Source: Aerococcus sp. HMSC062A02
Lineage (GTDB): Bacteria > Bacillota > Bacilli > Lactobacillales > Aerococcaceae
DNA length: 46,770 bases
Assembly (NCBI RefSeq): GCF_001809535.1
Contig: NZ_KV797940.1
Span: 11,056-57,825, forward strand
Direction of reading: 5' to 3'
The notes beneath the pieces are model-generated. The model had not been told where the DNA came from. It made no database searches and worked only from the letters and a program-made list of their open reading frames with translations. Positions 342 through 36,001 of this stretch are shown here, piece by piece. Positions within the stretch are counted from its first letter, which is position 1. Each line of letters starts with the position of its first letter. The position numbers and the translations under genes were made by a program.

Positions 342-478
342 CTCACACCCTTTATAGTCGGGTTCGCAAGAGCAGCTTTGGAGTGCTTTCGCAAGTCGGG
401 AACGTGCAAGCGTGGCTTGCCCTTATCCCGACTTACTCCAAGCATCCAAAGCTAAACGCTCTCGCTCACACCTTTTTT
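342..478. repeat. Structured hairpin repeat array A (one unit)
   Basis: One unit lies between two copies of the boundary motif CTCACACC (342-350 and 465-472), 123 bp apart. Nested stems are visible: GCAAGAGC with GCTCTCGC, AGCTTTGG with CCAAAGCT, and AGTCGGGA with TCCCGACTT. The apex contains GTGCAAGCGTGGCTTGC. The same architecture, with other stem sequences, recurs at 27796-28283 and 46474-46770. The array ends seven bases from the rsmG stop codon. Apparent reading frames across it are by-products of the repeat. Confidence 0.85.
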
Positions 479-8000: not shown

Positions 8001-8030
8001 TAAAATAATTTACAATTTAAGGAGGATTCT

Positions 8031-8774: not shown

Positions 8775-8794
8775 AATTTCTACCTTATAATGAT

Positions 8795-8832
8795 AAAAAA
8801 AGGCTGCAGTCCATATTAGCGCAGCCTTTTTT
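8795..8832. terminator. Bidirectional terminator between convergent genes
   Basis: AAAAAAGGCTGC pairs with GCAGCCTTTTTT across a 14-base loop, between the DeoR gene and the glycyl radical enzyme gene. Confidence 0.9.
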
Positions 8833-8846
8833 ACTTTGCCTAATTC

Positions 8847-11267
8847 TTACAAAGTATGTTCGGTTCTTTCGATAATATCATCCTGTGTAGCTTTAGAAAG
8901 TACATTAAAGAAGGCAGAGTAGCCAGCTACCCGGACAATTAAATCTCTATGATCTTCCGGATGTTTTTGAGCATCAATCAGAGTGTCACGTGAAACTACA
9001 TTATATTGAATATGGTAGCCTTTCAGGCGGTTAAAGAAAGTCCGGATAAGCATGATCAGCTTCTGTTTATCAGAATCCTTAGCTAGGGTCTGTGGATTAA
9101 CTTTTTGATTGAGTAAGACCCCTCCAACAATCTTATCTGTCTTGAGTTTTGAAATAGACTTCAAAACTCCGGTTGGTCCATGTTGGTCCATATTATGCGA
9201 AGGAGAACACCCTTCTGCCAAAGGTTCCCACGCATTCCGACCGTTCGGCGTCGCCATAGTTCCCATCCCCTGGCCTACATTGGCAGAGATAGATGAGGTA
9301 CCCGCATAACGTTTCCCGCCAATTGGTCCGCGGTCATGACGAGTATTAGGATACTTATCAATTTCATCGATATAACTATCGTACGCTTCGACAATGAGTT
9401 GGTCTACGTATTCATCGTCATTCCCATATTTAGGTGCATCGTGGATAAGCATGTATTGAATTTCTTGTTCACGCTCAGATTGGAAGTTATTCATTAAAGC
9501 TTCCCATAATTCTTCCCTTCCAATCTTCTTCTCTTCAAATACTAACTTCTTAATTGCAGCTAGGGAGTCAGCCATATCGGCGATTCCAACTTGCAATCCC
9601 GAAATAAAGTCGTAAAGAGCGCCCCCTTCTTTAATCGCTTTACCACGTCCAATACAGTCTTCAGTGAGGGCTGAACAAAGGATATCTGGAACCATTCGCT
9701 CTAATCCAATGTCACATGAGTTTTCGACAATCACACTCATTCGCGTAATATCACGAACAATCTTATCCCAAGCCTTCATCAGCTCATCATATGAAGTCAT
9801 ATCTTTAAAGTGGCCCATTCCTTCACTGAAACGTAAGCCGGTTTTAGGATCAATCCCATCATTCATAGTAATCAGAAGAATTTTAGGGAAGTTCATATAG
9901 CTCATGCCTGTACAGCGATAACCCCACTTACCTGGAACTGCTGTTTCAACACATCCGATCGCACTATAATCATAGGCATCTGTATCTTTGACGCCGTAAT
10001 CAATAAAGGATGGAATAATAATCTCATCATTATTGAAGGCTGGCATGCCGAATCCTAGTTTAACTACTTCAATACACTCATTCATAAAATCTGCATCTAA
10101 ACCTGAATGATAACGAACTGTCAAATTTGGCTGAGGTAACTTAGTTTGTGCCACACTTCGCAAGACTAAATAAGATAATTTATTAACAGCGTCTTCCTTA
10201 TTAGCTTTTTGGCCGCCAATGGTCACATTTTGATAGAGAGGACTCCCTGCAGAGCTTTGGGTATGAGATTGGCTCCTCACTTTGTTCACGGTGATAGTCT
10301 TGATCCATAAATTCGTTAGTAATTCTACCGCTTCATCCTCAGTTAAGGTCCCTTCTTCTAAATCTTTCGCCAAGTAAGGGTGCATATATTGGTCAAAACG
10401 GCCATAGGATAAGGAGTGACCATTCGATTCAATTTGCAAAATCAGTTGGATAAACCAAACCGATTGAACTGCTTCTCTAAAATTATGTGCTGGCTCATAA
10501 GGTACACGACTTGTTATTTCAGCAATTTGTCTTAACTCTTCTGCACGTTTAGGATCAGCAGTCTTCGCCATTTCTGTAGCCAAACTTGAAAAACGACCAG
10601 CATAAGTTCTTACCGCATTAAGAACAGTTAAAATGGCGTGGTAGAAGTGATATTTATCAATACTACCTAAAGCAGCTAAATCTAAGTTTTCTAATTGTTT
10701 TTGAACACGTTTTTCATAACCCTTAAGTCCATATTTTAGGACAGCTGCGTAGTCTACTGCTAAGTGCGCATCCCCTGAGTTCATCTTCCCTTCCATGCCA
10801 AAGAAACCAAGAAAAGGACGAATTTCTTCTGGTAGGATATTTTTTGAATAATCTCTCAGCGTTTTACCTTGCCAGAAGGACTCAATCGATCTTAAGTCAT
10901 CTTTAGTTTCTTCTGTGATATAGAAGACATCCCCATCTCGTAACTCAAAGCTATCTAACTCATCAATCACAAATTCCATAGTATATTCTGGAAAAATTGG
11001 TGCCGCATTATTTTGTGAAGCTTGATTGCCAACAATTAAGGTGTCATCTTCAATAAAGATCTTCATGTTTACTAAAATATTTTCTAACATTTTAGCACGT
11101 TTAGTATAAACATGAGCACTTTCATATTTCTTATAAGCCTCTGTCGCTAGTAGGGCCCGATCGGAACAAATATAAGGTTTTTGACTAAGAACGGCTTCCC
11201 GATAATTAGCCATACGGTCTGTTAATAAACCAAAATGTGGGACACTTTCTTTGATACTTGTTTCCAT
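8847..11267 (-). CDS. Glycyl radical enzyme, PflD/YbiW-like (annotated formate acetyltransferase 2 in relatives)
   Basis: This 806-residue glycyl radical enzyme has its radical glycine at Gly782 in RVAGYSAFF near the C-terminus. The catalytic thiyl cysteine is Cys439 in SAIGCVETAVPGKWGYR. The Cys-Val-Glu motif belongs to C-O lyases and dehydratases, not to true pyruvate formate-lyase, which has two adjacent cysteines. E. coli YbiW and PflD were reported to open 1,5-anhydrohexitol 6-phosphates to 1-deoxyfructose 6-phosphate. The Fsa-like aldolase, GldA and fructose-type EIIC genes here fit that pathway. AAGGAGAG precedes the ATG. The promoter has an operator palindrome in its spacer. The exact substrate is inferred. 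Confidence 0.9.
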   Translation of the reverse strand: METSIKESVPHFGLLTDRMANYREAVLSQKPYICSDRALLATEAYKKYESAHVYTKRAKMLENILVNMKIFIEDDTLIVGNQASQNNAAPIFPEYTMEFVIDELDSFELRDGDVFYITEETKDDLRSIESFWQGKTLRDYSKNILPEEIRPFLGFFGMEGKMNSGDAHLAVDYAAVLKYGLKGYEKRVQKQLENLDLAALGSIDKYHFYHAILTVLNAVRTYAGRFSSLATEMAKTADPKRAEELRQIAEITSRVPYEPAHNFREAVQSVWFIQLILQIESNGHSLSYGRFDQYMHPYLAKDLEEGTLTEDEAVELLTNLWIKTITVNKVRSQSHTQSSAGSPLYQNVTIGGQKANKEDAVNKLSYLVLRSVAQTKLPQPNLTVRYHSGLDADFMNECIEVVKLGFGMPAFNNDEIIIPSFIDYGVKDTDAYDYSAIGCVETAVPGKWGYRCTGMSYMNFPKILLITMNDGIDPKTGLRFSEGMGHFKDMTSYDELMKAWDKIVRDITRMSVIVENSCDIGLERMVPDILCSALTEDCIGRGKAIKEGGALYDFISGLQVGIADMADSLAAIKKLVFEEKKIGREELWEALMNNFQSEREQEIQYMLIHDAPKYGNDDEYVDQLIVEAYDSYIDEIDKYPNTRHDRGPIGGKRYAGTSSISANVGQGMGTMATPNGRNAWEPLAEGCSPSHNMDQHGPTGVLKSISKLKTDKIVGGVLLNQKVNPQTLAKDSDKQKLIMLIRTFFNRLKGYHIQYNVVSRDTLIDAQKHPEDHRDLIVRVAGYSAFFNVLSKATQDDIIERTEHTL

Positions 11268-11313
11268 TTTGCTCTCTCCTTAAATATTTTCGCCTACATT
11301 TTTCTACATTTAA

Positions 11314-11342
11314 AGTATATTATACTTTCATTCGAAAGTCAA
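11314..11342 (-). promoter_or_regulatory. Promoter of the glycyl radical enzyme with operator in the spacer
   Basis: On the minus strand TTGACT and TATACT are 17 bases apart. The palindrome CTTTCGAATGAAAG (11325-11338) overlaps the -35 end and fills most of the spacer, the classic position for repressor blocking. Confidence 0.75.
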
Positions 11343-11361
11343 ACATATTTTTAATGATTAA

Positions 11362-12153
11362 TCATCCTAGATTATCTAAGCGTAGAATTTCCTCAATGGT
11401 CTCTTGGTCAGTGATTAAACCGTTAACATAATGACCGCGCAATAGAGCTAAAATAGAGACAGCTTTGATATTATCCCTGGCAATTGCTATAGATAGAGGG
11501 ATAGTTGCTAAATGATCGAGTTCGATACCAATTGTTCGCTTATCTAGCTGCGAGTGAATTTGATTACCATCGATATCATAAAAACGACAACAACAATCTC
11601 CAATCGCATTATATTTTCTTAGGTCCTCGAGATCATAATTATTAATTAAATCGCGCCAATGTTCTCTCCGATACCGCAAGGGACCGCCGACCCCTACTAA
11701 GGCAATATCCAGGTCTTCCCAACGATCGTTAATCCCTGAAAAATATCTTGAATATTGAATACCATCTGCTAGTTCAATCGTTTCTTGAATAACCGTAGCA
11801 TTAATGAAGATACTTTTCCCGGACAATTTCTTCCCTAATTTGTAGGCTAAAGTGTTCACATGATACTCAGAATCAATATGACTAGGGCCTCCAACTACAG
11901 GTAAAACCAAGACATCTTTTACTTGGTTTTTGTTTTCAATTTGATCAACAACATTCCCAACCGTTTCACCCCAGGACAAGCCGATTAAATCACCGCTGTT
12001 AACCTGGTCTTCCAAAAATTCTGCTCCAGCCAGACTTAATTTCTTCTCCTTATCTGCCTCAGAATCCTCAGGATCTGTTGGCACAACCAACAAATGTTTT
12101 AAGGCGAACTTTTCTTTGATGATATTACTGAGATCTTCTATTGTTTTTTTCAT
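11362..12153 (-). CDS. SorC-type sugar-binding domain protein lacking a DNA-binding domain
   Basis: This 263-residue protein consists almost wholly of the SorC/DeoR effector-binding domain: GLSWGETVGNVVDQI, LPVVGGPSHIDSEYHVNTLAYKLG, VGVGGPLRYRREHWRDL, AIGDCCCRFYDIDGN and a C-terminal ILALLRGHYVNGLITD. It resembles residues 90-310 of the full SorC regulator at 17534-18490 but starts where the helix-turn-helix would end. AGGAGG lies seven bases before the ATG, so the short form is genuine. It sits between the EIIC gene and the glycyl radical enzyme gene. It may be a co-sensor for the full regulator or, since the fold is related to sugar-phosphate isomerases, an enzyme. Confidence 0.85.
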   Translation of the reverse strand: MKKTIEDLSNIIKEKFALKHLLVVPTDPEDSEADKEKKLSLAGAEFLEDQVNSGDLIGLSWGETVGNVVDQIENKNQVKDVLVLPVVGGPSHIDSEYHVNTLAYKLGKKLSGKSIFINATVIQETIELADGIQYSRYFSGINDRWEDLDIALVGVGGPLRYRREHWRDLINNYDLEDLRKYNAIGDCCCRFYDIDGNQIHSQLDKRTIGIELDHLATIPLSIAIARDNIKAVSILALLRGHYVNGLITDQETIEEILRLDNLG

Positions 12154-12186
12154 GTTAATCCTCCTACCAACTAAAGCATTTATTCA

Positions 12187-13224
12187 TTATTTACTCTTAC
12201 TGAGCTTCAACTTACCTATTAAAACTAAGAGTATAAGACCTAGAATCACACCCGATACAACAGCGATGACGAAACCAAAGGGATTCGCATTTAATGGTAA
12301 GATAAAGAATCCACCAAAAGGAGCCATGACTGAGCACCCCAAGGCTACGGATAGGGCACCTGCTAACATAGCACCACCAATACAAGCTACACCAACCTGC
12401 AAAGGGTTCTTTACTAAGAAGGGAATGCCCCCTTCTGATATTCCTGCCAGTCCCATAATTAAATTTGAAATTCCCTGACTCTGCTCTTCTTTGGAATAAT
12501 TTTGCTTAAAAAGTAAACTAGCAATACCTGTGACATAAGGGCCAATTAAGGCTCCTGCTAGGACAGCAGACATCATCGTATAATTACCTTCCGCCAATTG
12601 AGCAGTCGCAAAGAGATAAGCTACTTTATTAATGGGTCCACCCATATCTACCATCTGCATACCTGCTAATACCATACCTAAAATAATTTGGCTGGATCCA
12701 CTCATCCCTGCAAGCATCTGGGTCAGCGATTCATTGACTTGTCCCAAAAGAGGTTCCACTATAAAAACTGAAGCTAAGCCAATTAATAGGGCTGAGACTA
12801 GAGGAATAATTAAAATTGTAACTAAAGCCTGTATACTATCTGGGACTCGGCGCAATACTTTCTTTAGAAAATTCACCAGATAACCTACAGCAAAGCCAAG
12901 GATTAAGGCACCAAAGAAACTAGACCGACCTGCATTCGATAAAGCCCCACCAAGTAAACCAGCTGGAATAGCGGCTGTACCTGCTATTTTATAACCAATA
13001 GCTGCAGCAAAAACAGGGAGCATAAAGGAAAAAAGTAAGTTTCCATTAGTATTAAAGAATGCCGCTACACTTGTATTCGTTCCAAATGTCTCTGGATTAA
13101 TACTGGCATCATCTACCAAAAAACTAAGTCCTAACATAATCCCACCTGCAACAACAACAGGTAACATATAGTCAACCCCCGTTAAAATCGGATCCAATAT
13201 TTTATTTGATTTTTGTCCAGTCAT
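12187..13224 (-). CDS. PTS fructose-like family EIIC (membrane permease) component
   Basis: This 345-residue protein with about nine or ten hydrophobic segments matches the fructose-family EIIC. It has FSFMLPVFAAAIGYKIAG, the substrate-site motif MGGPINKVAYLFA, and ISEGGIPFLVKNPLQV. The usual fused or adjacent EIIA (active His) and EIIB (active Cys) are absent from the window. AAGGAGGAG precedes the ATG. It lies 12 bases after the ROK kinase and 34 bases before the SorC-domain gene, one operon by spacing. It may use EIIAB encoded elsewhere, or act as a facilitator with ROK-dependent phosphorylation. The latter is inference. Confidence 0.92.
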   Translation of the reverse strand: MTGQKSNKILDPILTGVDYMLPVVVAGGIMLGLSFLVDDASINPETFGTNTSVAAFFNTNGNLLFSFMLPVFAAAIGYKIAGTAAIPAGLLGGALSNAGRSSFFGALILGFAVGYLVNFLKKVLRRVPDSIQALVTILIIPLVSALLIGLASVFIVEPLLGQVNESLTQMLAGMSGSSQIILGMVLAGMQMVDMGGPINKVAYLFATAQLAEGNYTMMSAVLAGALIGPYVTGIASLLFKQNYSKEEQSQGISNLIMGLAGISEGGIPFLVKNPLQVGVACIGGAMLAGALSVALGCSVMAPFGGFFILPLNANPFGFVIAVVSGVILGLILLVLIGKLKLSKSK

Positions 13225-13235
13225 TTTTCTCCTCC

Positions 13236-14168
13236 TTATTTCTGGTCCAATATAGCACGGTAATCATCTTCAAGGTGTTCTTCAATGAAATGATAGAGCG
13301 TACCATAGAGATTAGCATCATTATTTAGTGACGATTGAACAATAACAGGAAGCATCGAATACTCCTTATTAGCTTCATACATTTGCTTAATTTCATTATA
13401 AATTTGATCCCGAACTAAGACTTGAGCACTGATTCCACCACAGATTACAAATTTTTCAGGATCAATAATATATTGAAGACTGACAATCATACGCGCAATC
13501 TTGCGGCAATAGGTCGTAAAAACCTGCCATGATTCTTTATTTTCAGGCTTAATATAATCAAACACAATCTGACCATCCGTATCTTCAGCTAGTCCATTTA
13601 AACGAGCAATGCTCCTTATCATCTTAGGAGCTGAAGCATCAAAGCCTTGTCTGAGATAAACATCAGGTGTATCAGTCGGATCCCCTACCATGTATGAAAC
13701 TTCTCCTGCCGAATAATGAGCTCCACGGTGTAATTGATTATTAATAATAATCCCGCCCCCTATGGCGCTCCCCAGAACAAGTACCACGGCATCTCTGACA
13801 TCATGAATGGCTCCTCGCCATAATTCAGCAAGCGCTCCTGCCTTACCATCATTTTCAACAGATACGGGAAGATTAAAACGTTCCATAAAGATCTTCTTTA
13901 AATTAGCTTGGTGCAGATAAGGCAAGTTGCCTCCCCAATATACAATTCCTTGATAAGAATCAACAACACCGGGGCAACACATCGAAATGCCTCGACATTT
14001 AAGCCCTTCTTTACCGTCAAGTTCTTCCACAATAGCAAACATCTGATGAATCAGATCATCTAATGAATCTTTAGGAGAAGGAAATTTATTCTTATATAGA
14101 ATATTTCCAGATCGGTCTAATGCCGCATACTTAACGGCAGACCCTCCCATATCAAAGGCCAAATACAT
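13236..14168 (-). CDS. ROK-family sugar kinase
   Basis: This 310-residue ROK protein has the N-terminal phosphate motif FDMGGSAVKYAAL, substrate/catalytic segment VENDGKAGALAELW, and LGSAIGGGIIINN followed by HYSAGEVSYMVG. The usual CXCGXXGCXE zinc site is missing and replaced by DPTDTPDVYLRQG. There is no N-terminal helix-turn-helix, so it is a kinase rather than a NagC-like regulator. The ATG at 14168 has AAGGAAG upstream; a GTG 24 bases earlier is less likely. It heads the operon ROK-EIIC-SorC domain and probably phosphorylates the sugar or anhydrosugar taken up. It is divergent from the activase gene. Confidence 0.9.
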   Translation of the reverse strand: MYLAFDMGGSAVKYAALDRSGNILYKNKFPSPKDSLDDLIHQMFAIVEELDGKEGLKCRGISMCCPGVVDSYQGIVYWGGNLPYLHQANLKKIFMERFNLPVSVENDGKAGALAELWRGAIHDVRDAVVLVLGSAIGGGIIINNQLHRGAHYSAGEVSYMVGDPTDTPDVYLRQGFDASAPKMIRSIARLNGLAEDTDGQIVFDYIKPENKESWQVFTTYCRKIARMIVSLQYIIDPEKFVICGGISAQVLVRDQIYNEIKQMYEANKEYSMLPVIVQSSLNNDANLYGTLYHFIEEHLEDDYRAILDQK

Positions 14169-14205
14169 ATACTTCTTCCTTCCATTAAGCACTTATATTC
14201 GAATA

Positions 14206-14227
14206 ATTAAACGCTTTCATTTAAATG
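14206..14227 (-). promoter_or_regulatory. Candidate cre site overlapping a degenerate DeoR operator, upstream of the ROK gene
   Basis: On the minus strand TGAAAGCGTTTAAT (14206-14219) matches 12 of 14 positions of the CcpA cre consensus TGWAANCGNTNWCA. It overlaps CTTTCATTTAAATG, a degenerate version of the locus palindrome. Both fit carbon-catabolite plus specific control of the ROK-EIIC operon. Confidence 0.5.
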
Positions 14228-14283
14228 TATTCTATATTTCAAATTATATATTTTCAATAGCCTAGAGCTCTTTCATTATTATT

Positions 14284-14296
14284 TTCACATATGTGC
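14284..14296. promoter_or_regulatory. Candidate SorC operator in the ROK/activase divergent region
   Basis: TTCACATATGTGC contains the perfect palindrome CACATATGTG. The same 13-mer occurs at 18512-18524, upstream of the full SorC regulator and the aldolase gene. Confidence 0.6.
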
Positions 14297-14314
14297 GAAA
14301 ACAAATTTATTCCG

Positions 14315-14343
14315 TTTATTTCTTTCATTTGAAATAATATAAT
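14315..14343 (+). promoter_or_regulatory. Promoter of the activase operon with operator in the spacer
   Basis: A perfect TATAAT (14338-14343) has only a weak TTTATT at -35 (17-base spacer). The palindrome CTTTCATTTGAAAT (14322-14335) fills the spacer, as at the glycyl radical enzyme promoter. Confidence 0.6.
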
Positions 14344-14394
14344 ATTGTAAATGTAATGATTAGGTGCTATTCTAGTGAAGAAGAGGTGACGATA

Positions 14395-15189
14395 ATGATA
14401 GCTGAATCAAATAAAGTCAAAGATAAAGCATTAATATTTAACATCCAAAAATATAGCATCCATGACGGCCCAGGAATTCGATCTGTTGTTTTCTTCAAGG
14501 GATGCCCCTTACGCTGCTTCTGGTGTTCAAATCCCGAATCTCAACTCAAAAAACCTGAAGATATGTGGGATAACACAAAAAAAGCCATCACGACTGTTGG
14601 CGAATACAAGACCTATGATGACATTATTAATGAAGTGCTAAAGGATCGTGTCTTCTATGAAGAATCTGGAGGAGGGGTTACTTTTTCAGGAGGCGAGGTC
14701 CTTTTTCAGGCTGAATTTGCAACCGAATTAGCTAGACGACTACGTGATTTAGGTATCCATATGGCTTGCGAAACAACTGGCTATGCGTCAACAAAAACAT
14801 TCAGTCATTTTATTGAGCAAATGGATCTAATTTTTATTGATTTTAAGCATCCTGACTCTAAGCAACATCGTTTAGGAACAGGTGTGCCTAATGAGTTAGT
14901 CATAAAGAACATTATGTATGCCAAGGAACATCATGACCAAGTTATTGTTCGCATTCCAATTATTCCTAATTTTAATGACAGTCTGGAAGTCGCCCATCAA
15001 TTTGCACACAAGCTAAATGATATGCATATTGATGCCATTGAACTCTTACCCTTTCACCAATTTGGAGAAAATAAATATAAATATCTTAACCGAGACTATA
15101 AGATGAAAAATGTGCCCCAACTCCATGCTGAAGACTTAGAAGACTACAAACAGATTCTTGAAGCTGCTGGCATTACCGTTTCCATATAG
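14395..15189 (+). CDS. Glycyl-radical enzyme activating enzyme (radical SAM)
   Basis: This 264-residue radical-SAM enzyme reductively cleaves SAM to create the glycyl radical on the partner encoded at 8847-11267. The cluster motif CPLRCFWC is CX3CX2C. The family signatures SIHDGPGIRSVVFFKG and GGGVTFSGGEVLFQ follow. Only a short loop follows the cluster motif, so the ferredoxin-like two-cluster insertion common in activases of non-PFL glycyl radical enzymes is absent. The ATG at 14395 has GAGGTGA upstream and gives the usual length; a start 39 bases earlier lacks a ribosome site. It is first in an operon with the TPR, DUF4037 and DUF4125 genes. Confidence 0.93.
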   Translation: MIAESNKVKDKALIFNIQKYSIHDGPGIRSVVFFKGCPLRCFWCSNPESQLKKPEDMWDNTKKAITTVGEYKTYDDIINEVLKDRVFYEESGGGVTFSGGEVLFQAEFATELARRLRDLGIHMACETTGYASTKTFSHFIEQMDLIFIDFKHPDSKQHRLGTGVPNELVIKNIMYAKEHHDQVIVRIPIIPNFNDSLEVAHQFAHKLNDMHIDAIELLPFHQFGENKYKYLNRDYKMKNVPQLHAEDLEDYKQILEAAGITVSI

Positions 15190-15203
15190 AATGGAGAGAT
15201 TTA

Positions 15204-16013
15204 ATGATAAATGATCGCATTCAAAGCAAATTACATGAAGCTCATAGTCTCTGGCGTGAGGGAAAAGAGGAAGCTATGCTCAGCCCTTTAGAGGAAGCTC
15301 TTCAATTAGCAAGGCAAGTAGGGAATACGTCAAAAACAATTGAAATTCTATCAGAGTATGGTGGGGCTCTTCGCGTGACCGGTAATCTGCAAGAAGCCGA
15401 AAAAGCTCTAACAGAGGTCGTTAAGCTGCTAGAACAGATTCATGCTGAAAAGCATCCACCTTATGGGACAGCTTTAGTCAATCTAGCCAATCTCTATCGA
15501 GTGCAAAAGCGTCATAAATTAGCTTTATATATATTTAAAAGAGCTAAATATGTATTCGAAGATATTCATTGTTTTGACTACAATTACACTAGTCTCTGCA
15601 ATAATCTTGCCTTACTCTATCAAAGTTTGGGAGAAGATACAGAAGCCATCCAACTTTTAAAAGAAACTATTACCTACCTTCAAGCAGATGAAAAATATCT
15701 TCTTCCCTTAGTCACAAGCTACAATAATTTAACCAGCCTCTATTTAAACCAGGGGGATTTATCTTTAGCCCAGTCTTATTTAGATCAAGCTAAAGATTTA
15801 GCTAGAGATAAGCTTAAACACAATGCTCCAATCCAAGCAGCTATCTTAAACAACCAAGGTCTTATCCACCAAAAAAATAAAAATTATGAAGCCAGTAAAA
15901 CGAGTTTCCAAACAAGTTTAAAATTCTTAGCACAAAGCTATGGGGAAAATAGTCCTGACTATCAATCTGTTAAAAGTAATTTAGAAATTGTTAGGGGGGC
16001 CCTGCATGACTAA
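15204..16013 (+). CDS. Tetratricopeptide-repeat protein
   Basis: This 269-residue all-helical soluble protein has about six TPR-type helix pairs. Examples are ALVNLANLYRVQKRHKLALY, SLCNNLALLYQSLGEDTEAI, YNNLTSLYLNQGDLSLAQSY and ILNNQGLIHQKNKNYEASKT. Spacing between repeats is about 42 residues, closer to kinesin-light-chain TPRs than to the 34-residue form. No signal peptide. It starts 14 bases after the activase gene with GGAGAG and overlaps the next gene by eight bases, so it is tightly coupled to the DUF4037 protein. A scaffolding role is inferred; the function is unknown. Confidence 0.88.
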   Translation: MINDRIQSKLHEAHSLWREGKEEAMLSPLEEALQLARQVGNTSKTIEILSEYGGALRVTGNLQEAEKALTEVVKLLEQIHAEKHPPYGTALVNLANLYRVQKRHKLALYIFKRAKYVFEDIHCFDYNYTSLCNNLALLYQSLGEDTEAIQLLKETITYLQADEKYLLPLVTSYNNLTSLYLNQGDLSLAQSYLDQAKDLARDKLKHNAPIQAAILNNQGLIHQKNKNYEASKTSFQTSLKFLAQSYGENSPDYQSVKSNLEIVRGALHD

Positions 16014-16902
16014 AGCAAACTCAGGTATGCAACTCGCCCAGGCTTTCTTTGCAGAAGAACTTTATCCCTATCTACAAAAGAACTTCCCTCGATTGCTAAC
16101 AATTTCTGCCATTGGTTTGGTCGGACCAGGATCTGAATGTTTAGGTTACGACGATGATTATTCTAAGGACCATGATTTTGAGAGACGTTGTTGCATTTGG
16201 CTACCTGAAAAATATCTTACAAGTTCAAAAGCCATTGTCAACCAACTCAAAGTAGACTATGATGCTAAATTACATCCTATGGTCTTGGAAGATTTCTATG
16301 AGCATTATACAGGCATCCGCCATTGGCCCACTGATGATTTAAATTTACTTACCATCCCTGAAAATGGACTCTTAACAGCTTCTAATGGGCAAGTTTTTTG
16401 GGATTCTTATGGCTTATTTAGCCAATATCGTCAAGCGATTCAAGCTTATTATCCTAAAGATATTTGGCTAAAACGACTATCCTACCACTGTTTACAAGCT
16501 GCCCAAGCTGGACAATATAATTATAGCCGCTGTTTAAAGCGTAAAAATTATCTAGCAAGTTTCCAAAGCTTAGCTTTATTTATGAACCACTATAGCCATC
16601 TCATCCACCTGATCAATAAGCGCTATCAGCCTTTCTATAAATGGCAACAAGCCTCCTTACTGGACTGTCCTCTATTTGGGTCATTAACCGTCAAAGGCTT
16701 CAACCAACTGGTCCAGCAACCTTTTGACTTACAAAATCATCAGGTCATCGAACAAATGACTCAACTCCTAACAAACTACTGGTGCCGAGAGGAACTGAGT
16801 AAGTCCACAGATAATTTTCTATTAATACAAGCCGATGAATTAGCTCAACATATTAAAGACCCTAAGCTCAGAGAGAGCAATTTATGGACATTGGAGGTAT
16901 AA
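16006..16902 (+). CDS. DUF4037-type protein with a nucleotidyltransferase-like motif
   Basis: This 298-residue soluble protein has an N-terminal block GPGSECLGYDDDYSKDHDFE (residues 41-60). The Gly-Ser and, 12 residues on, Asp55-x-Asp57 fit the pattern of the DNA polymerase beta-like nucleotidyltransferase fold. I associate the whole with DUF4037. The remaining two thirds is helical and rich in Tyr, His and Gln. The ATG at 16006 overlaps the TPR gene and follows GGGGGG. DUF4125 begins two bases after its stop. It may attach a nucleotide to a protein or small molecule, but no reaction is known to me. Confidence 0.8.
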   Translation: MTKANSGMQLAQAFFAEELYPYLQKNFPRLLTISAIGLVGPGSECLGYDDDYSKDHDFERRCCIWLPEKYLTSSKAIVNQLKVDYDAKLHPMVLEDFYEHYTGIRHWPTDDLNLLTIPENGLLTASNGQVFWDSYGLFSQYRQAIQAYYPKDIWLKRLSYHCLQAAQAGQYNYSRCLKRKNYLASFQSLALFMNHYSHLIHLINKRYQPFYKWQQASLLDCPLFGSLTVKGFNQLVQQPFDLQNHQVIEQMTQLLTNYWCREELSKSTDNFLLIQADELAQHIKDPKLRESNLWTLEV

Positions 16903-16903
16903 A

Positions 16904-17470
16904 ATGTCTAAAGATGAACTTATCACACAGATTGTTGATTTAGAATTAAAGGATTTTATTAGCACTAATGATGAAAAAAATAAAAGCATCTGCCAAAACC
17001 ATCCTGAAAATTTCATCCTATCTCGGCTTGCCCAATGGTATATCTTTGATGAGGAGATTCTTTCATCTTATTTACAAGACATCCAGCAAGCTCACTATCA
17101 AGGAAGGAATATTGTAAGGGATAAGTATGCCTACATCATGGCCCTGACTAATCCCATCATCTGTCATTATCTAGCTGAACCCTCCCCGCATAAAAAAATA
17201 CTCAGCCAGCAACTAACAGCGATGGTCATTGCTTATTATCAAAACTTAAAGGCTGGAGGAAAAACAGACTATATCCTTAAACGTCCACTATATCAGCATG
17301 AAGAAACTGATCAGATGATCTCAGTAGAAAGCTATCTCTTGGGGGAATATTATACCTACAGTGAGGAGACTCTCATTCGAATTCTCAATTATTTTAATTT
17401 ATGTCAAAAAGAAAAGCTAAACCCTATCCAAAAACTGCTGGACCTACTAATGATTGAAGATTATATTTAA
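16904..17470 (+). CDS. DUF4125-family protein
   Basis: This 188-residue soluble helical protein begins with LITQIVDLELKDFISTNDEKNKSICQNHPENF and contains LSRLAQWYIFDEEILSSYLQD and NIVRDKYAYIMALTNP. These are typical of the DUF4125 family as I remember it. There are no cysteine clusters, signal peptide or nucleotide motifs. Its start is two bases after the DUF4037 stop, and a bidirectional terminator follows, so it ends the activase operon. Constant pairing with DUF4037 suggests the two act together; the function is unknown. Confidence 0.78.
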   Translation: MSKDELITQIVDLELKDFISTNDEKNKSICQNHPENFILSRLAQWYIFDEEILSSYLQDIQQAHYQGRNIVRDKYAYIMALTNPIICHYLAEPSPHKKILSQQLTAMVIAYYQNLKAGGKTDYILKRPLYQHEETDQMISVESYLLGEYYTYSEETLIRILNYFNLCQKEKLNPIQKLLDLLMIEDYI

Positions 17471-17487
17471 ACTTCTAAATTAACAAA

Positions 17488-17533
17488 ATAGGGCTGCAAA
17501 GGAGATTCATATTCCCCTTTGCAGCCCTTTTTA
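17488..17533. terminator. Bidirectional terminator between DUF4125 and SorC genes
   Basis: AGGGCTGCAAAGG pairs with CCTTTGCAGCCCT and is followed by TTTTTATT, with an A-rich flank on the other side. The two flanking genes converge on it. Confidence 0.9.
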
Positions 17534-18490
17534 TTATCTTTCTGCTTTCTCTAAGGCTAACACAGCTTCGATGGTCTGACGATCAGTCACTAAAGTATTA
17601 ATATATTTTTGTTTCATCGCTACTAGAATAGCTCGCACCTTATGCTTGCCAAAAGCGATTGCTAGCTTATGAGGGACTTGAAGAAGCTCGTGAAGCGCCA
17701 TACCAATAATGCGCTGATCTAATTCTGTATTGGCTGGTCGCCCTTCATTATCAAAGAATCGGCAACACAGTTCACCAACAACTTCCTTAGCCTCTAACTC
17801 ATAACGGTCAGAAGCTGTGAGTAAATCTCGCCAAGGACTCTCCGAAAAATTTAATTCTCCTCCAATGCCCATGATCAATAAATCTAAATGTTTCCATTTT
17901 GCTTGAAGTTCTTGCATCTCCTTTTGCCGATAAATTTTATTGGCTAGAAAACTTGTCTCTTGTACTACCTGATGATTGATATACATTGTTTCGCCATGAA
18001 ATATTTGAGCCATTCGGTAAACTAGAGTATTAACGTGATAAGAGCTATTCAATGAACTTGGAGCCCCTGCTATCGGATAAAAAGATGTACTTTTACTTTG
18101 TTTAGGATGAATTTTATCAATACTCGCTTTTAAACTAGCTCCCCATGATAACCCCACCTGCATTTCGTCCTGGATAACTTGTCGGATAACAAAAGCAGCA
18201 CGCTCAGCTACTCTCTCCCTGATTTCATCGATACTTTCACCGACTTGATTGTCGACAATCTCTAGCCGCTCTAATTGATAATATTCTCTAACGAAATCTT
18301 CTAGCCTAATGCTATCTGCTTCAGGAAGCTTCAATTGAAAGGAAATTAAATCTTCTTTTCTTGCTTGGTCGAGTAAACGGCTCACAGTGGACCGATGAAT
18401 TTTAAAGGAATTTCCAATTTCTTCTTGCGTCTTATTCTTTTCGTAATAAAGATAAGCTATTTTAGCTATCATGCGGTCTTTTTCTGTCAT
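17534..18490 (-). CDS. SorC/DeoR-type transcriptional regulator with sugar-binding domain
   Basis: This 318-residue regulator has an N-terminal helix-turn-helix (residues about 8-50: IAYLYYEKNKTQEEIGNSFK, then IHRSTVSRLLDQARKEDLI). The SorC effector domain follows (VGLSWGASLKASID, HVNTLVYRMAQIF, MGIGGELNFSESPWRDLL, ELCCRFFDNEGR, MKQKYINTLVTD). The ATG at 18490 has AGAGGA upstream and gives the normal family length; a longer frame to 18589 would run through its control region. It is divergent from the aldolase-gldA operon. The palindrome CACATATGTG between them also occurs upstream of the activase operon, so it probably controls both, with a sugar phosphate as ligand. Confidence 0.92.
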   Translation of the reverse strand: MTEKDRMIAKIAYLYYEKNKTQEEIGNSFKIHRSTVSRLLDQARKEDLISFQLKLPEADSIRLEDFVREYYQLERLEIVDNQVGESIDEIRERVAERAAFVIRQVIQDEMQVGLSWGASLKASIDKIHPKQSKSTSFYPIAGAPSSLNSSYHVNTLVYRMAQIFHGETMYINHQVVQETSFLANKIYRQKEMQELQAKWKHLDLLIMGIGGELNFSESPWRDLLTASDRYELEAKEVVGELCCRFFDNEGRPANTELDQRIIGMALHELLQVPHKLAIAFGKHKVRAILVAMKQKYINTLVTDRQTIEAVLALEKAER

Positions 18491-18511
18491 ATAAATCCTC
18501 TTTCTACAAAA

Positions 18512-18524
18512 TTCACATATGTGC
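18512..18524. promoter_or_regulatory. Candidate SorC operator upstream of sorC-like and fsa genes
   Basis: TTCACATATGTGC contains the perfect palindrome CACATATGTG (18514-18523), identical to the 13-mer at 14284-14296. It lies 22 bases upstream of the regulator's own start and about 40 bases before the fsa -35 element. Confidence 0.6.
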
Positions 18525-18532
18525 ATATTAAA

Positions 18533-18590
18533 TTTACGTTTGAAACTAATATAACATTCAATTGACAATAAATAAAGTGGAGGATACACT
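18533..18590 (+). promoter_or_regulatory. fsa-gldA promoter with degenerate DeoR site
   Basis: TTGACA (18562-18567) and TACACT (18585-18590) are 17 bases apart. TTTACGTTTGAAAC at 18533-18546 matches the locus palindrome CTTTCATTTGAAAG at 10 of 14 positions. Confidence 0.5.
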
Positions 18591-18622
18591 AAAACTAGAA
18601 CAATATTAAAGGAGTAATCATA

Positions 18623-19306
18623 ATGGAATTCTTACTAGACACAGCAAATATTGAAACAATCAAACATTTAACAGACTTTCTTCCGATTAGTGGGATCACA
18701 TCTAATCCCTCTATATTGAAAAAAGAAGGAAATGTATCATTTTTTGAGCATTTAAGGCAGATTCGCAATATTATTGGTAAAGAACGGAGCTTGCATGTTC
18801 AGACCGTTGCTGAAGATTACCAAGGTATGATCAAAGATGCCAAACGGATAGTTAATGAAATTGATCAAGATGTATTCATTAAAATTCCAACTAACTTGGA
18901 AGGTTTAAAAGCCATACGAGAACTTAAAAAACAAGGTTTTAAAATTACTGCTACTGCCATCTATACCACTATCCAAGCTGACTTAGCCATTGCCGCTGGT
19001 GCTGACTATATTGCCCCTTATTATAATCGGATTGAAAATATTGGCCTCTCGCCCGACCAGAGTATTCACCATATGGCCCAACAAATTGAAAGGAGTCAAG
19101 CTTCCACAAAAATATTAGCAGCGAGCTTTAAGAATGCAGGGCAAGTTTCTAAAGCCTTAGAAGCTGGTGCCCAGAGCATCACTGCTGCGCCAGATGTCCT
19201 CACCAAGGCTTTAAAGATGGCTGAAATTGGCCAAGCTATTGCTGACTTCTCCTCTGATTGGTCTGCGATTCATGGGGACGGTTCAAGTATTTCGACCTTA
19301 AAATAA
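18623..19306 (+). CDS. fsa: Fructose-6-phosphate aldolase / transaldolase-like (Fsa/TalC)
   Basis: This 227-residue protein is of the short transaldolase class: N-terminal MEFLLDTANIETIKHLTDFL and GITSNPSILKKEG, the Schiff-base lysine strand VFIKIPTNLEGLKAI, then ITATAIYTTIQADLAIAAGADYIAPYYNRIENIG. Short members cleave fructose 6-phosphate to dihydroxyacetone and glyceraldehyde 3-phosphate. In the E. coli anhydroglycolysis pathway FsaA/FsaB cleave 1-deoxyfructose 6-phosphate to hydroxyacetone and glyceraldehyde 3-phosphate, which fits this context. AAAGGAG precedes the ATG, and gldA follows after 13 bases, the same pairing as fsaB-gldA in E. coli. Confidence 0.93.
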   Translation: MEFLLDTANIETIKHLTDFLPISGITSNPSILKKEGNVSFFEHLRQIRNIIGKERSLHVQTVAEDYQGMIKDAKRIVNEIDQDVFIKIPTNLEGLKAIRELKKQGFKITATAIYTTIQADLAIAAGADYIAPYYNRIENIGLSPDQSIHHMAQQIERSQASTKILAASFKNAGQVSKALEAGAQSITAAPDVLTKALKMAEIGQAIADFSSDWSAIHGDGSSISTLK

Positions 19307-19319
19307 AGGAGTTTTTTAA

Positions 19320-20408
19320 ATGAAAATATTTACTAGTCCTAGTAAATATATGCAAGGATCTAATATTTTAGAGACTGAAATAGAAATCTTTAAGGAATAT
19401 GGTCAGAAACTTGCCTTGCTTAGTGATGACAATGTGTACCATATTATTGGAAGCAATTTCCATAAACACTTAGAAAATCAAGGTCTAGAAGTGACCTACA
19501 TCCCTTTCAATGGTGAAGCTTCAAATCAAGAGATTAACCGAGTGAGTGATATTTGCCGAAAAGAAAAGACAGAAATAATCGTTGGCTTAGGTGGAGGGAA
19601 GACCATCGATTCAGCCAAGGCTATTGCTGATGAGATCAACCAAGATGTTATTATTATTCCCACAATTGCTTCTACCGATGCACCAACTTCAGCCTTATCT
19701 GTTATCTATTCTGAAGCAGGAGTTTTCGAAGGCTATCGTTTTTATAAGAAAAATCCAGACTTGGTTCTAATTGACACACAAGTCGTTGCCAATGCCCCTA
19801 GTCATTTATTAGTAGCCGGAATTGGTGATGCTCTGGCAACTTATATTGAAGGTCGGAGTATTTATGAAGGCAATGGCGATAATATGTTAGGCGGTAAAGC
19901 AACTCTAGCCGCCCTAGCTATAGCAGAAAAATGCCAAGATACCTTGTTTGAAAATGCTAAACAAGCAATTAGTGCTTGTGAACGTCAGGTGACGACAGAA
20001 GCACTGGAACAAGTGGTTGAAGCGAATACCTTGCTCAGTGGTGTCGGATTTGAAAGCTGTGGACTAGCAGCTGCTCACTCCATCCATAATGGCTTTACAG
20101 CCTTGTCTGGAGACATCCATCAGCTGAGTCATGGAGAGAAAGTGGCTTATGGTACTCTCACCCAGCTTGTCTTAGAAAATCGTTCTAAGGAAGAACTCGA
20201 TCGTTACTTGAACTTCTATAAAGAGATTGGCTTACCTACTCGACTAAATGATCTCCATCTCGATCAAGCATCGAAAGACAATCTGATGTCAGTAGCAGAA
20301 CTTGCAACTCAAGAAGGTGAAACTATTCATCAAATGCAAAAAAATTATACTGCCCAAGATGTTTACAATGCTATAGTCACGCTTGACAGCTATAGTGCCA
20401 GTTTCTAG
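19320..20408 (+). CDS. gldA: Glycerol dehydrogenase GldA
   Basis: This 362-residue iron-containing-alcohol-dehydrogenase-superfamily enzyme is NAD-linked and zinc-dependent in this group. The NAD motif is VGLGGGKTIDSAKAIAD. Metal ligands are the Asp in GIGDALATYIEG and the histidines in AAHSIHNGF and LSHGEKVAYG. It interconverts glycerol and dihydroxyacetone and also reduces hydroxyacetone to 1,2-propanediol, the final step proposed here. It is downstream of fsa with AAGGAG and ends in a strong bidirectional terminator. Length and motifs are normal. Confidence 0.95.
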   Translation: MKIFTSPSKYMQGSNILETEIEIFKEYGQKLALLSDDNVYHIIGSNFHKHLENQGLEVTYIPFNGEASNQEINRVSDICRKEKTEIIVGLGGGKTIDSAKAIADEINQDVIIIPTIASTDAPTSALSVIYSEAGVFEGYRFYKKNPDLVLIDTQVVANAPSHLLVAGIGDALATYIEGRSIYEGNGDNMLGGKATLAALAIAEKCQDTLFENAKQAISACERQVTTEALEQVVEANTLLSGVGFESCGLAAAHSIHNGFTALSGDIHQLSHGEKVAYGTLTQLVLENRSKEELDRYLNFYKEIGLPTRLNDLHLDQASKDNLMSVAELATQEGETIHQMQKNYTAQDVYNAIVTLDSYSASF

Positions 20409-20442
20409 AACTTAATTACATAGCCTCTATATTAATTCATAC

Positions 20443-20499
20443 AAAAAGCGGAAGCGATTGTTCTTTATAAAATCAGATCATTCGCTTCCGCTTTTTTTC
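20443..20499. terminator. Bidirectional terminator at the end of the AT-rich metabolic block
   Basis: AAAAAGCGGAAGCGA pairs with TCGCTTCCGCTTTTT across a long loop. It separates gldA from the convergent HAD phosphatase gene. Confidence 0.9.
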
Positions 20500-20505
20500 T
20501 ATTAT

Positions 20506-21357
20506 TTACTTGCCTGACCGCACAAAATCCTCCATAAAGTCCAAATCCCCTGCTTCCAAATAGCGGTTGAGGACTTGGAGCACAGCCCCTTCATTATTGC
20601 TGCCAATCTCGTAGCGGCAGAGGGATTTGAGATCGGGATCGGCATTGGCCATGGCCACCGAGTAGCCAACCTCTCCCATCATGGAAGCGTCATTCAGGCT
20701 ATCCCCGAAGGCCATGGTCTCTTCGGGACGGATCTGGTACTTGTCCTGCAGGTAACGCACAGCTGATCCCTTACCTCCCTCGGCATTGATGAAGTCCATC
20801 CACATGGTCGCAGAGGTCACGCCCGTTATCCGCGGGAAGGTCGCATTCATCTGAGTCACGAAATCCTTATTGGCCGCCAGCCCTTCAAAGGAATTGACCG
20901 CTAATTTCACCGGATGGTGGCCCAAGTCTTCAAGCTCTGCATAGGAATCTAGGAGGGTAATATCGGGACAATAAATCCGAATATTGGCCTCATTCTCAGC
21001 AATCAAGCGGGTGGAATAGAAGCCATCCCCAGCGCTGACTAAGGAGCTGTAGTTGGGATTGGCGTGGACTTCCTGGTCCAGGGCCAGTAAGTCATCTAAA
21101 GCGATGACCTTCTCTTCAATCCGCTCGCCTTCTTTTTCAATGACATTGCCATTCTCACCAGCCAAATAAACCAGGTCTTGCAGGGGACCCGACAAGTAGT
21201 ATTCCAGCTTGGAGAGGCTATTGCCACTAGCAATGCAAGTCACAACTCCGCGCTTGCGCAAGTCCTTCACCATGTCTAAGAAGGCCTCGGCATCATAGGT
21301 CTTATCCGACCTTAAGAGGGTTTCATCCATATCGATCGCAAGTAATTTAACTGTCAT
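20506..21357 (-). CDS. HAD-superfamily (Cof-type, IIB) phosphatase
   Basis: This 283-residue hydrolase has motif I DMDETLLRSD at the N-terminus, a small IIB cap, a lysine in EGGKGSAVRYLQDKY, and motif IV FGDSLNDASMMGEVGYSVAMANA. Cof-type members dephosphorylate sugar phosphates and nucleotides; the substrate is not readable. The ATG at 21357 has GGAGG six bases upstream. GC-richer codons than gldA mark the end of the AT-rich block. It lies downstream of the DeoR gene on the same strand (82-base gap), so it may belong to that regulator's transcript. Confidence 0.9.
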   Translation of the reverse strand: MTVKLLAIDMDETLLRSDKTYDAEAFLDMVKDLRKRGVVTCIASGNSLSKLEYYLSGPLQDLVYLAGENGNVIEKEGERIEEKVIALDDLLALDQEVHANPNYSSLVSAGDGFYSTRLIAENEANIRIYCPDITLLDSYAELEDLGHHPVKLAVNSFEGLAANKDFVTQMNATFPRITGVTSATMWMDFINAEGGKGSAVRYLQDKYQIRPEETMAFGDSLNDASMMGEVGYSVAMANADPDLKSLCRYEIGSNNEGAVLQVLNRYLEAGDLDFMEDFVRSGK

Positions 21358-27728: not shown

Positions 27729-27772
27729 AAAAAAAGATGAAGGAGGCCTTTGAGCTTCCTTCATCTTTTTTA
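27729..27772 (+). terminator. Terminator of the phosphonate operon
   Basis: AAAAAAGATGAAGGA pairs with TCCTTCATCTTTTT around a 13-base loop directly after phnX. Confidence 0.9.
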
Positions 27773-27790: not shown

Positions 27791-28283
27791 GCTTGCTCAC
27801 ACCCTTAGTCGGGTTCGGTCACGCAACTTTCGTGTCACTTCACAAGCCTCCGCCGCAGTCCTTCAGACTGCTTTGGTGACTTGCTCCAGTGAACGAAAGT
27901 TGAACGCGTGCCCTCACACCCTGATAGTTGGGTTCAGTCGCGCAGAAGTGGCTCCTCTTCACAAAGCGCCGTCGAAGACTTTCAGTCTTCTCTGTTGCTT
28001 TGCTCCAGAGGTCCACTTCTACCCGCGCTCCCTCTCACCCTTTAGTTGGGTTCGACTTGGCAGAAGCTTCTCCACTTCACACGAACGAAACGTGCAAGCA
28101 TGGCTTGCCCTTTTTCGTTCGTGCTCCAGTGGTAAGCTTCTAACCGCCAAGTCTCTCACCCTTTCTAGTCGGGTTCGACTTGGCAGAAAGGGAGTGACTT
28201 CAGCAAAGCGGAACGACCGGCTAATGCCGCTCTTTTCCTCTTTGCCACCAGTCATCCCTTTCTAAACGCCTTTGCTCACACCC
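27791..28283. repeat. Structured hairpin repeat array B (four tandem units)
   Basis: Boundary motifs CTCACACCC or CTCTCACCC occur at 27796, 27913, 28032, 28153 and 28275, giving units of 117, 119, 121 and 122 bp. Each unit reads: short ACCC...GGGT hairpin, stem 1, AG, stem 2, TTCACA or TTCAGC, stem 3 with a variable apex, TGCTCC or TGCCACC, stem 2', CTAAMC-like, stem 1'. Stem 2 arms are AACTTTCGT/ACGAAAGTT, AAGTGG/CCACTT, AAGCTT/AAGCTT and AGAAAGGG/CCCTTTCT in units 1-4. The last boundary overlaps the jag stop codon. Reading frames through the array are by-products. Confidence 0.9.
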
Positions 28284-29362
28284 TAATGTCTATAGTCTAC
28301 AATCAGATAGCGGTGGGGTTCTCGGCCTTCTGACCGGGTTTCGATGTGGTCATACTTGGAGAGGGCTTGGTGGACGATTTTTCGCTCGTTGGCGGGCAAG
28401 GGGGAGAGTTGGACGGAGGATTGTTTGACCGTCACTTCATCCGCTGTACGTTCCGCCAGGCGCTCCAAGGTCTTCAAGCGGCGTTCCCGGTAGTCGCCGA
28501 CATTGACCACGACGTTGACGCGATTGCGGACATGGCGGTGGACCAGCACTTTGGCTAGGGCTTCGAGTGAATTCAAGATCTTACCGTGCTTGCCGATAAC
28601 GAGGCCTGGCTTATCGGTATTGATGTGGTAGATAATTTCCCGGTCGTGGTCTTCTACATCCACTGTAACATCGACCCCATAAGCTTCACAGACATCGATA
28701 ATATAGCGGGCGGGGAAGTCGACATCGTAGAAAACTTTGTTATTTTCATCTTCAGCCGGTGTGTCTTCTTCCTCTTGGTTAGCCGCTTGATCAGCCTGTT
28801 CTGAAGCTTGCTTACTAGCTTCCGCTTCTTCTACAGCCGCTACTTCTTCGTTATCCGAATCTTGGGCTGCTTCCTCTTGCTGGCTCGTCTCAGTGCCTGT
28901 TTCTTCTTCAGAAACAGATTCTTGGACAGGGTCAGCTAGGGGACGGCCATCTTCCTGGATCTCATCCTTGGCGAGGACAGGCGCTTCTTCAGCTGAAATC
29001 GCTTGGACTTCTTCGACAGAATCGCTAGCAGGATCATGCCCTTGTTGACTCCGGGCTTGCTTATCATCTGCGACATAGACAGCGGACGTGCTCGCTTCAT
29101 TGGTCGGATCAGCGACCGACTTGCTGACGGGGTCATCTGGATCGTCAGCATCCTCTCTAGCTTCTGTTTGACCTTCTTCTGAGTGATCAGCTGCCTTGAC
29201 AAATAATTTAACAATGGCATCGCGGGCCCCAATGCCTAGGAAACCCTTGCGTGCTTCCTGCAGCACTTCCACTTCAACTTCTTCTTGGGCGACTCCTAAT
29301 TCTTTTAAACCAGCCTTGATGGCGGCTTCCACAGAGTCGGCTTGAAATATTTTGGCTTGCAT
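28283..29362 (-). CDS. jag: RNA-binding protein Jag (KhpB/EloR)
   Basis: This 359-residue cytoplasmic RNA-binding protein is linked in Firmicutes to cell elongation. The Jag_N domain (residues 1-52) has the family's KGFLGIG motif. A long acidic Glu/Asp/Gln/Ala linker (about 70-210) follows. The KH domain has GLVIGKHGKILNSLEALAK, and the C-terminal R3H domain ends EGREPHRYLIVDY. The linker makes it longer than the common 200-330 residues. It is downstream of yidC with a 40-base gap and has AAGGAG upstream. Its TAG stop is fused to the boundary of repeat array B; in most relatives mnmE would follow. Confidence 0.96.
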   Translation of the reverse strand: MQAKIFQADSVEAAIKAGLKELGVAQEEVEVEVLQEARKGFLGIGARDAIVKLFVKAADHSEEGQTEAREDADDPDDPVSKSVADPTNEASTSAVYVADDKQARSQQGHDPASDSVEEVQAISAEEAPVLAKDEIQEDGRPLADPVQESVSEEETGTETSQQEEAAQDSDNEEVAAVEEAEASKQASEQADQAANQEEEDTPAEDENNKVFYDVDFPARYIIDVCEAYGVDVTVDVEDHDREIIYHINTDKPGLVIGKHGKILNSLEALAKVLVHRHVRNRVNVVVNVGDYRERRLKTLERLAERTADEVTVKQSSVQLSPLPANERKIVHQALSKYDHIETRSEGREPHRYLIVDYRH

Positions 29363-35862: not shown

Positions 35863-35949
35863 TCACTCCTTTGAATATTTAGTTGAATAAAGAGCAAAAA
35901 AGCTGATGCCCCTGCTCTTTACAGCAGAAGTCATCAGCTTTTGAATCAT
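35863..35949 (-). CDS. Possible second leader reading frame (28 aa) between leader peptide and antiporter
   Basis: A frame starting MIQKLMTSAVKSRGISFF begins in TGATG, overlapping the stop of the 11-residue leader. It runs through the terminator hairpin and ends in the TGA within AAGGAGTGA, four bases before the antiporter ATG. It has no ribosome site of its own, so translation would be by coupling. It may merely reflect the base pairing of the hairpin. Confidence 0.35.
   Translation of the reverse strand: MIQKLMTSAVKSRGISFFALYSTKYSKE
35889..35942 (-). terminator. Attenuator in the antiporter leader
   Basis: On the minus strand AGCTGATG (35932-35939) pairs with CATCAGCT (35901-35908) and is followed by TTTTTT. 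An exclusive alternative pairs AAAGAGCA (35913-35920) with TGCTCTTT (35889-35896), which would take apart the terminator. A leader peptide ends 10 bases before the first arm. Confidence 0.8.
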
Positions 35950-35984
35950 CAATAGCGGTTTAGGGCTAGGCCCAAGGAAGACAT
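35949..35984 (-). CDS. Putative 11-residue regulatory leader peptide
   Basis: The short frame MSSLGLALNRY ends in two tandem stops (TGA TGA). AGGA lies five bases before its ATG, and it starts about 12 bases after the predicted transcription start. A ribosome paused at its end would cover the upstream arm of the terminator and favour the antiterminator, as in ribosome-mediated attenuation. This is inferred from layout; the signal is unknown. Confidence 0.5.
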   Translation of the reverse strand: MSSLGLALNRY

Positions 35985-36001
35985 TCATTTCCTGTGTCTT
36001 G

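Follow-up and report, generated by a model that had tools for sequence, protein, structure and literature searches.

The genomes of Aerococcus and its relatives carry an apparently undescribed, large, and dispersed family of small mobile hairpins that are placed after gene stop codons. A unit consists of a single long and imperfect DNA hairpin of approximately 120 bp, and the units are arranged in tandem arrays of one to six. The family was recognized in a stretch of 46,770 nucleotides from Aerococcus sp. HMSC062A02 (NCBI RefSeq assembly GCF_001809535.1, contig NZ_KV797940.1, positions 11,056 to 57,825 of the forward strand), which is here called the window. The genome of the window is designated G000; G001 is the complete genome of a sister species, of which a contiguous 400 kb was sampled. 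An initial annotation of the window had described tandem units with compensated stems and conserved loops. Beyond that description, the family is mobile, lies on the sense strand of the preceding gene, starts at the stop codon, and reaches beyond the Aerococcaceae.

The array is located between phnX on the plus strand and jag on the minus strand, which were named by their NCBIfam matches (TIGR01422 and Jag_EloR, respectively; Table 1). Four direct units with a spacing of 117–122 bp occupy positions 27796–28274, as had been described, and are flanked by two copies of TTGCTCACACCCT that lie 479 bp apart. The jag stop codon (TAG, 28285–28283 on the minus strand) overlaps the unit head GGGTGTGAG, and the array thus begins within the stop codon. 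Preserved pairing had been claimed for the stems of all four units. The quoted stems are present, but the closing arms of the unit adjoining jag do not match (GACTTGGC versus GCCTTTGC), and this unit is probably chimeric. In total, the window holds seven complete units and an eighth that is cut by the contig end, close to the seven or so that had been estimated. An open frame on the plus strand (27873–28265) crosses the array. A protein-coding repeat was rejected, in line with the initial annotation, because this frame runs opposite to the folded strand and because the changes between units are compensatory; the frame was not taken as a gene. A CRISPR array was rejected by eye, the units being without a short constant repeat and unrelated spacers.

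Table 1. Coordinates of repeat units and associated features (window positions unless a locus is named)
Feature	Position	Strand	Remarks
Array of four units and terminal head motif	27796..28283	minus	runs from the jag stop codon towards phnX
Gene-proximal array boundary	28275..28285	minus	reads TAGGGTGTGAG on the minus strand
Unit adjoining jag	28153..28274	minus	subtype 3; closing arms mismatched
Unit, subtype 5	28032..28152	minus	AAGCTT stem
Unit, subtype 8	27913..28031	minus	AAGTGG/CCACTT stem
Unit, subtype 13	27796..27912	minus	ACGAAAGTT stem; gene-distal array end
Single unit of the same family	342..465	minus	close behind rsmG (479-1195, minus)
Pair of complete units with a third cut short by the end of contig C38	46474..46770	minus	profile matches; complete units begin at 46474 and 46594, the partial unit at 46715
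Terminator-like palindromic hairpin	27730..27771		behind phnX, left of the array
Second-repeat copy	near 4327	minus	
Second-repeat copy	L011:1090-1215		
Second-repeat copy	L009:10818		
Second-repeat copies	G001 400 kb sample		

Read on the minus, gene-sense strand, a unit opens with the head AGGGTGTGAG, followed by a closing arm of 7–8 nt, a GCGnnnAG junction with a 4-nt bulge, and an 8-bp stem. A short asymmetric loop leads to a 5-bp stem ending in CUGG, the internal loop GGA/GA, a stem of about 8 bp, and a variable apical hairpin, after which come the return strands, CTGC, the second closing arm, the tail CGAACCCGACTA, and a few variable letters before the next head. Head, tail, GCGnnnAG/CTGC junction, and internal loop are largely constant, while the paired letters drift with compensation; the closing arms of 7–8 bp pair yet differ between subtypes. 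The internal loop had been given as TTCACA/TGCTCC; it is indeed conserved, but its extent is corrected here to TTCA/CTCC on the plus strand, corresponding to GGA/GA on the minus strand. In some units, the hairpin itself is chimeric, which indicates that ordinary recombination also acts on them.

On both strands, each of the four window units folds much better than shuffled sequences of equal dinucleotide content (z −4.1 to −7.6). Of 95 units, 93 fold better on the sense (minus) strand than on the antisense strand when treated as RNA, and 94 do so under DNA parameters; the sense strand is probably the functional one. As the bias is equal under DNA parameters, it does not single out RNA. In the sequences read, no U run directly follows the units, in which they differ from intrinsic terminators (a GC-rich hairpin followed by a U run). 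Separate terminator-like hairpins sit behind the jag arrays of G001 and of a further genome (G009).

Selection on the folded strand, initially proposed as acting on a folded RNA or a cruciform, is supported by covariation. Among 95 units of G000, 18 of 20 pairs have changed on both sides, paired cells amount to 95.9% (65.8% when shuffled and at most 45.5% in slid controls), and the covariation score is 0.745 (0.193 shuffled, at most 0.225 slid). Since one genome holds few independent lineages, the analysis was repeated on 44 units from 14 genomes, comprising 11 units from G000 (one per subtype), 28 from 12 other genomes, and five from Aerococcus tenax. Two-sided changes were found at 37 of 39 base pairs, with a score of 0.769 against 0.193 for shuffled and at most 0.183 for slid controls, the slid control being biased in favor of the consensus structure because that structure was derived from the same alignment. 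The weakest element is the linker hairpin ACCC..GGGT (helix 6): its sequence is conserved as had been stated, but with one two-sided cell at each of three pairs and none at the fourth, the stem is hardly supported by covariation. Comparing units of the same subtype (nine subtypes of G000 and G001) gave 142 two-sided changes that keep the pair and 13 that break it, where 26 two-sided changes would be expected if the sides were independent; whole-arm exchange between subtypes contributes to the 142. One-sided changes in the same subtypes comprise 138 that keep the pair and 171 that break it, and the latter count against reading the units as mobile elements recognized by their fold. Such strong structural covariation among the paralogues of a single genome makes shape recognition directly testable.

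An iterated profile built from the window units gave 138 matches in G000, 101 of them near full length. The figure of 138 is a lower bound, as only 33 stretches around matches were covered, and several contigs end inside arrays. The G001 sample of 400 kb yielded 83 units, grouped into 39 arrays, whereas the same sequence reversed gave no profile hit. Extrapolated from these 400 kb, the sister species would carry approximately 420 units in approximately 200 arrays, or about one array per ten called genes, and copies would number in the hundreds per genome. A first model found matches in 16 of 40 genomes (that of the window included), among them 10 of 14 relatives of the same genus; no unit was detected with it in the remaining four (G003, G004, G007, and G011). 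A second model, built from the 44 units, matched 46 of 76 genomes of the Aerococcaceae and 12 of 21 genera (own included) at E ≤ 1e-4. In an order-wide draw, 56 of 246 genomes matched, 22 from the same family and 34 from six others. Four of these other families (f2, f6, f8, and f9) were confirmed by eye; the genomes of f3 and f7 gave only one or two weak matches each. Detailed searches returned 119 matches in G218 and 71 in G171, with units in tandem about 122 bp apart, as well as 67 in G159 and 37 in G122. In a class-wide draw of 200 genomes at E ≤ 1e-6, two genomes outside the order (G398 and G434) matched besides G000.

The window array matched no phage, and one linker pattern matched no viral contig; the examined stretches of two Aerococcus MAGs and one Chloroflexi MAG contained no units. 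Among plasmid records, the only match was a 591,691-bp "plasmid" of Aerococcus tenax UMB3669 (CP127381.1), and plasmid searches with units from other families returned either nothing or this record alone. With rpoB, rpoC, and rho, the main cluster of ribosomal protein genes, and rplL among its genes, this record is most likely a piece of chromosome.

The placement seen behind jag recurs at many other arrays. In G000, 38 arrays have an upstream open frame of at least 80 codons on the sense strand; 26 of them begin between −22 and +11 nt from its stop and the remaining 12 at 67–235 nt. In G001, 29 of 39 arrays have a sense-strand gene as the nearest upstream call, and the other 10 do not. Here, 22 of the 39 arrays begin between −8 and +12 nt of a sense-gene stop, four of them using the TGA of the head, whereas in 2000 simulations of random intergenic placement the number averaged 2.2 and never exceeded 8; the stops are from our own open-frame calls, the observed count using the longest frame ending near the array and the simulation a greedy ORF set. 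Eight of the 83 G001 units, at four of the 39 arrays, fall inside ORF calls of at least 150 codons, which are taken as open frames running through arrays. For other genomes, 107 of 132 matches were examined, and 61 were taken as first in their array behind an upstream frame of at least 90 codons. Thirty-one of the 61 begin −14 to +16 nt from the stop, and these come from five families of the order and from one genome beyond it; the examined loci are the best-scoring matches rather than a random sample, and a few internal units may count as first. In Aerococcus tenax, anchoring is weaker, and this counts against the mobile-element reading: of 28 matches (E ≤ 0.1) in 250 kb, five are in sense and no more than 20 nt from an annotated stop, as judged by eye (behind rplL, a metallophosphoesterase, a sugar transferase, lysS, and a hypothetical gene), a count that uses the depositor's annotation, which is incomplete in the collection used. 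An integron-like island was considered for the dense regions of G012 and G122 and was not borne out in the ORF listings of two stretches (L208 and L210), where arrays adjoin open frames as elsewhere. Anchoring at stops together with sense orientation in several families offers a way into the effects of small repeats on mRNA 3' ends and translation termination.

A second repeat family, which occurs in many copies of approximately 190 bp and itself forms a long hairpin (GAGCATCCGTTCC...CTGCTC), provides sites at which the arrival of units can be read. Empty copies in G000 and G001 measure 95–96 bp between two fixed points, while filled copies in G000 (L011:3077 and L038:4007) measure 214–216 bp and hold one unit each; a third filled copy (L029, minus strand) was judged by eye. 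In two copies of the second repeat, the central part is replaced by a reverse-oriented unit of the main family. At the three filled sites, the difference from empty copies is one unit, and no target letters are duplicated. The insertion point at L011:3077 and L038:4007 follows TTCACATC, which resembles the unit's own CTCACACCC. At L021, G001 has one unit, and G000 has further units around a copy of it that is 93% identical (the G000 array is partly masked by N). The L030 site of G001 is without a unit but retains a CTCACACCC scar. The units are thus mobile, and whole units appear and disappear at fixed points.

Turnover was followed at orthologous sites, 21 of which were chosen for having a complete or partial array in G000 and flanks that align to the 400 kb of G001; one of them (L009:10847, one partial unit in G000 and none in G001) was left out of the count. 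The 20 sites hold 43 near-complete units in G000 and 37 in G001, and 17 are occupied in both. Site by site, nine subtypes are shared, compared with 6.6 expected when arrays are shuffled (P 0.17) and 7.7 when units are shuffled (P 0.34). The sites are therefore stable, and their contents are indistinguishable from a random draw of about 11 common subtypes; some true retention, as at L021, is compatible with so small a sample. Truncated units were found at 31 of 68 gene-distal, 6 of 68 gene-proximal, and 9 of 58 middle positions, counts that include cuts by contig ends and N runs. No significant age gradient was found along arrays, as proximal units could not be shown to be younger (P 0.26), and this counts against the mobile-element reading. 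On their gene-distal sides, arrays are also crowded by other short dispersed repeats (AATCCACACTC.. / CAACCCACAATC..) that may form a third family (L033 at approximately 6300–6600, L031 at approximately 2550–2950, and other upstream flanks).

We give an even chance to the reading that the units are mobile elements, non-autonomous and about 120 bp long, that are recognized by shape. A putative trans-acting factor would bind the folded minus (gene-sense) strand through the conserved loops, as the pattern of conservation suggests, and the bound form would probably be single-stranded DNA. The factor would join units at the tail/head junction. Units would thereby enter, leave, and be swapped between arrays much as at integron attC sites, but gene cassettes would be lacking. 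Placement at stop codons may be tolerated or even helped, because the head together with the GTTTAG junction can supply in-frame stops, and transcripts would then carry the array as a 3' untranslated region. More tentatively, and at somewhat less than an even chance, the family may be a new mobile system of the Lactobacillales, in which a trans-acting enzyme would read only the 120-nt hairpin fold, insert units in sense at stops, and swap whole units between hundreds of fixed sites by a gene-less, integron-like recombination. A dedicated recombinase, if one exists, would provide a new tool and represent a novel type of array recombination. A DNA recombinase alone does not explain the preference for stop codons.

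No candidate for a mobilizing gene showed a consistent association in draws of 20–23 genomes, each covering part of the unit-bearing genomes. RAYT/IS200 was rejected as the driver, as the Y1 transposase (PF01797) is absent from the unit-rich G000, G001, and G009 while present in the unit-bearing G010 and others. Tyrosine recombinases were set aside because Phage_integrase (PF00589) occurs in all 23 genomes searched, with or without units. Reverse transcriptases are patchy, PF00078 not being found in the unit-bearing G002, G005, G009, and G010, and were likewise rejected. ORFs with a reverse transcriptase domain number two in G000 (L128 = G000:C47:94349-94963; G000:C17:33655-34425) and one in G001 (L129 = G001:C1:1141638-1142252); L128 and L129 contain no Rfam match.

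The placement of the units could also reflect a benefit to the host. As a 3' UTR RNA, an array would stabilize mRNA, slow its decay, aid termination, or tune translation termination, and selection would keep both sites and structure. This is a strong rival that is compatible with mobility, and we regard it as possible though on the doubtful side. It would account for sense orientation and stop-codon anchoring, for the better folding of the sense strand as RNA, and for array sites common to the sister species, and it has precedents in E. coli REPs close to stop codons (PMC12306157) and in hairpin clusters behind stop codons (PMC8355165). Yet orthologous sites share no more subtypes than chance would give, no unit was detected in four of the 14 relatives in the genus, and DNA parameters give an equal strand bias.

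The remaining explanations differ in how units would have spread. Old repeats at fixed sites, with no dedicated mobility now, might simply be shuffled by homologous recombination or gene conversion through the shared linker, which is the longest sequence common to the subtypes as judged by eye; chimeric arms point the same way. We consider this improbable, as single units have inserted into the second repeat at junctions that share at most a TTCACATC/CTCACACC resemblance, and as units near to G000 subtypes (by eye) occur in Aerococcus tenax and in G014, both of low relatedness (jag 52% for G014). A spread of the SINE type, in which a transcribed 3' UTR unit is copied back into DNA, would fit the sense orientation behind genes and the polar truncation of arrays. 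However, arrays are truncated at the 3' end of the sense strand and target-primed retroposons at the other end, and the gaps in the occurrence of PF00078 described above also weigh against it; we hold it to be very unlikely.

Several known systems come close to the units. EFAR elements (Venditti et al. 2007) are reportedly small palindromic mosaic elements of Enterococcus faecalis, approximately 170 bp long, with several sequence types and two stem-loops. They reportedly target stem-loops and are known from one species. In G201, a genome from another family of the order with 12 matches, each of the three copies read is followed by the terminator-like hairpin GAGGTTGGGACTTTTGTCCCAACCTC or a variant of it, giving a composite of approximately 170 bp, which resembles EFAR in size and in its Lactobacillales host. 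Unlike EFAR as described, the present units are placed at stop codons, occur in arrays, and are spread over several families. EFAR is the one known family that may be a relative; as it was compared by description only, the claim of an undescribed family, although consistent with a literature search in which no description of these units was found (most subscription journals lying outside its scope), is not proven. EFAR is mentioned among MITEs in PMC3733652. The bacterial MITEs RUP, NEMIS, and ERIC are non-coding, structured, and dispersed between genes, with lengths of approximately 100–200 bp (PMC2229807). The units share this size class and these properties but show no target duplication at the three filled sites, and their paired closing arms, the putative counterpart of terminal inverted repeats, vary rather than being conserved.

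Integron attC sites carry the end boxes RYYYAAC...GTTRRRY. By eye, the unit consensus has no such boxes, and there are no gene cassettes; nor was an integron integrase identified, the search having been made with the general Phage_integrase family. The likeness to attC/VCR arrays lies in a conserved shape with free stems, whole-unit exchange, and the lack of target duplication. According to PMC2727003, attC sites are imperfect hairpins with unconserved stems and unpaired features, whose shape is recognized on one strand. REPs are described in PMC3733652 as palindromes of 20–40 bp with a GTAG or CGTC tag. Like REPs and BIMEs, the units are extragenic palindromes in many copies, part of which lie near stop codons (for REPs, PMC12306157), whereas they are about 120 bp rather than 20–40 bp long and stand in direct tandem; in addition, neither tag is conserved in the consensus (by eye), and the Y1 transposase that accompanies REP/RAYT is missing from the three unit-rich genomes named above.

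In Rfam 15, no family matched the window units at curated gathering scores, which agrees with the initial view that the family was unnamed; only sub-threshold matches were obtained. One of these linked unit 2 to lactis-plasmid RNA (RF01742; 21.9 bits, E 0.14, cut-off 70), which resembles the units as a single long hairpin with purine internal loops. It is not supported as a parent family: its model matches one of 118 genomes (G141) and not G000, and the unit model misses the G141 locus. The sole match at gathering score in the window is a fluoride riboswitch (RF01734, 37.3 bits) at 35918–36001 on the minus strand. Elsewhere in the window, approximately 12.6 kb (7902–20514) are missing from the colinear region of the sister species.
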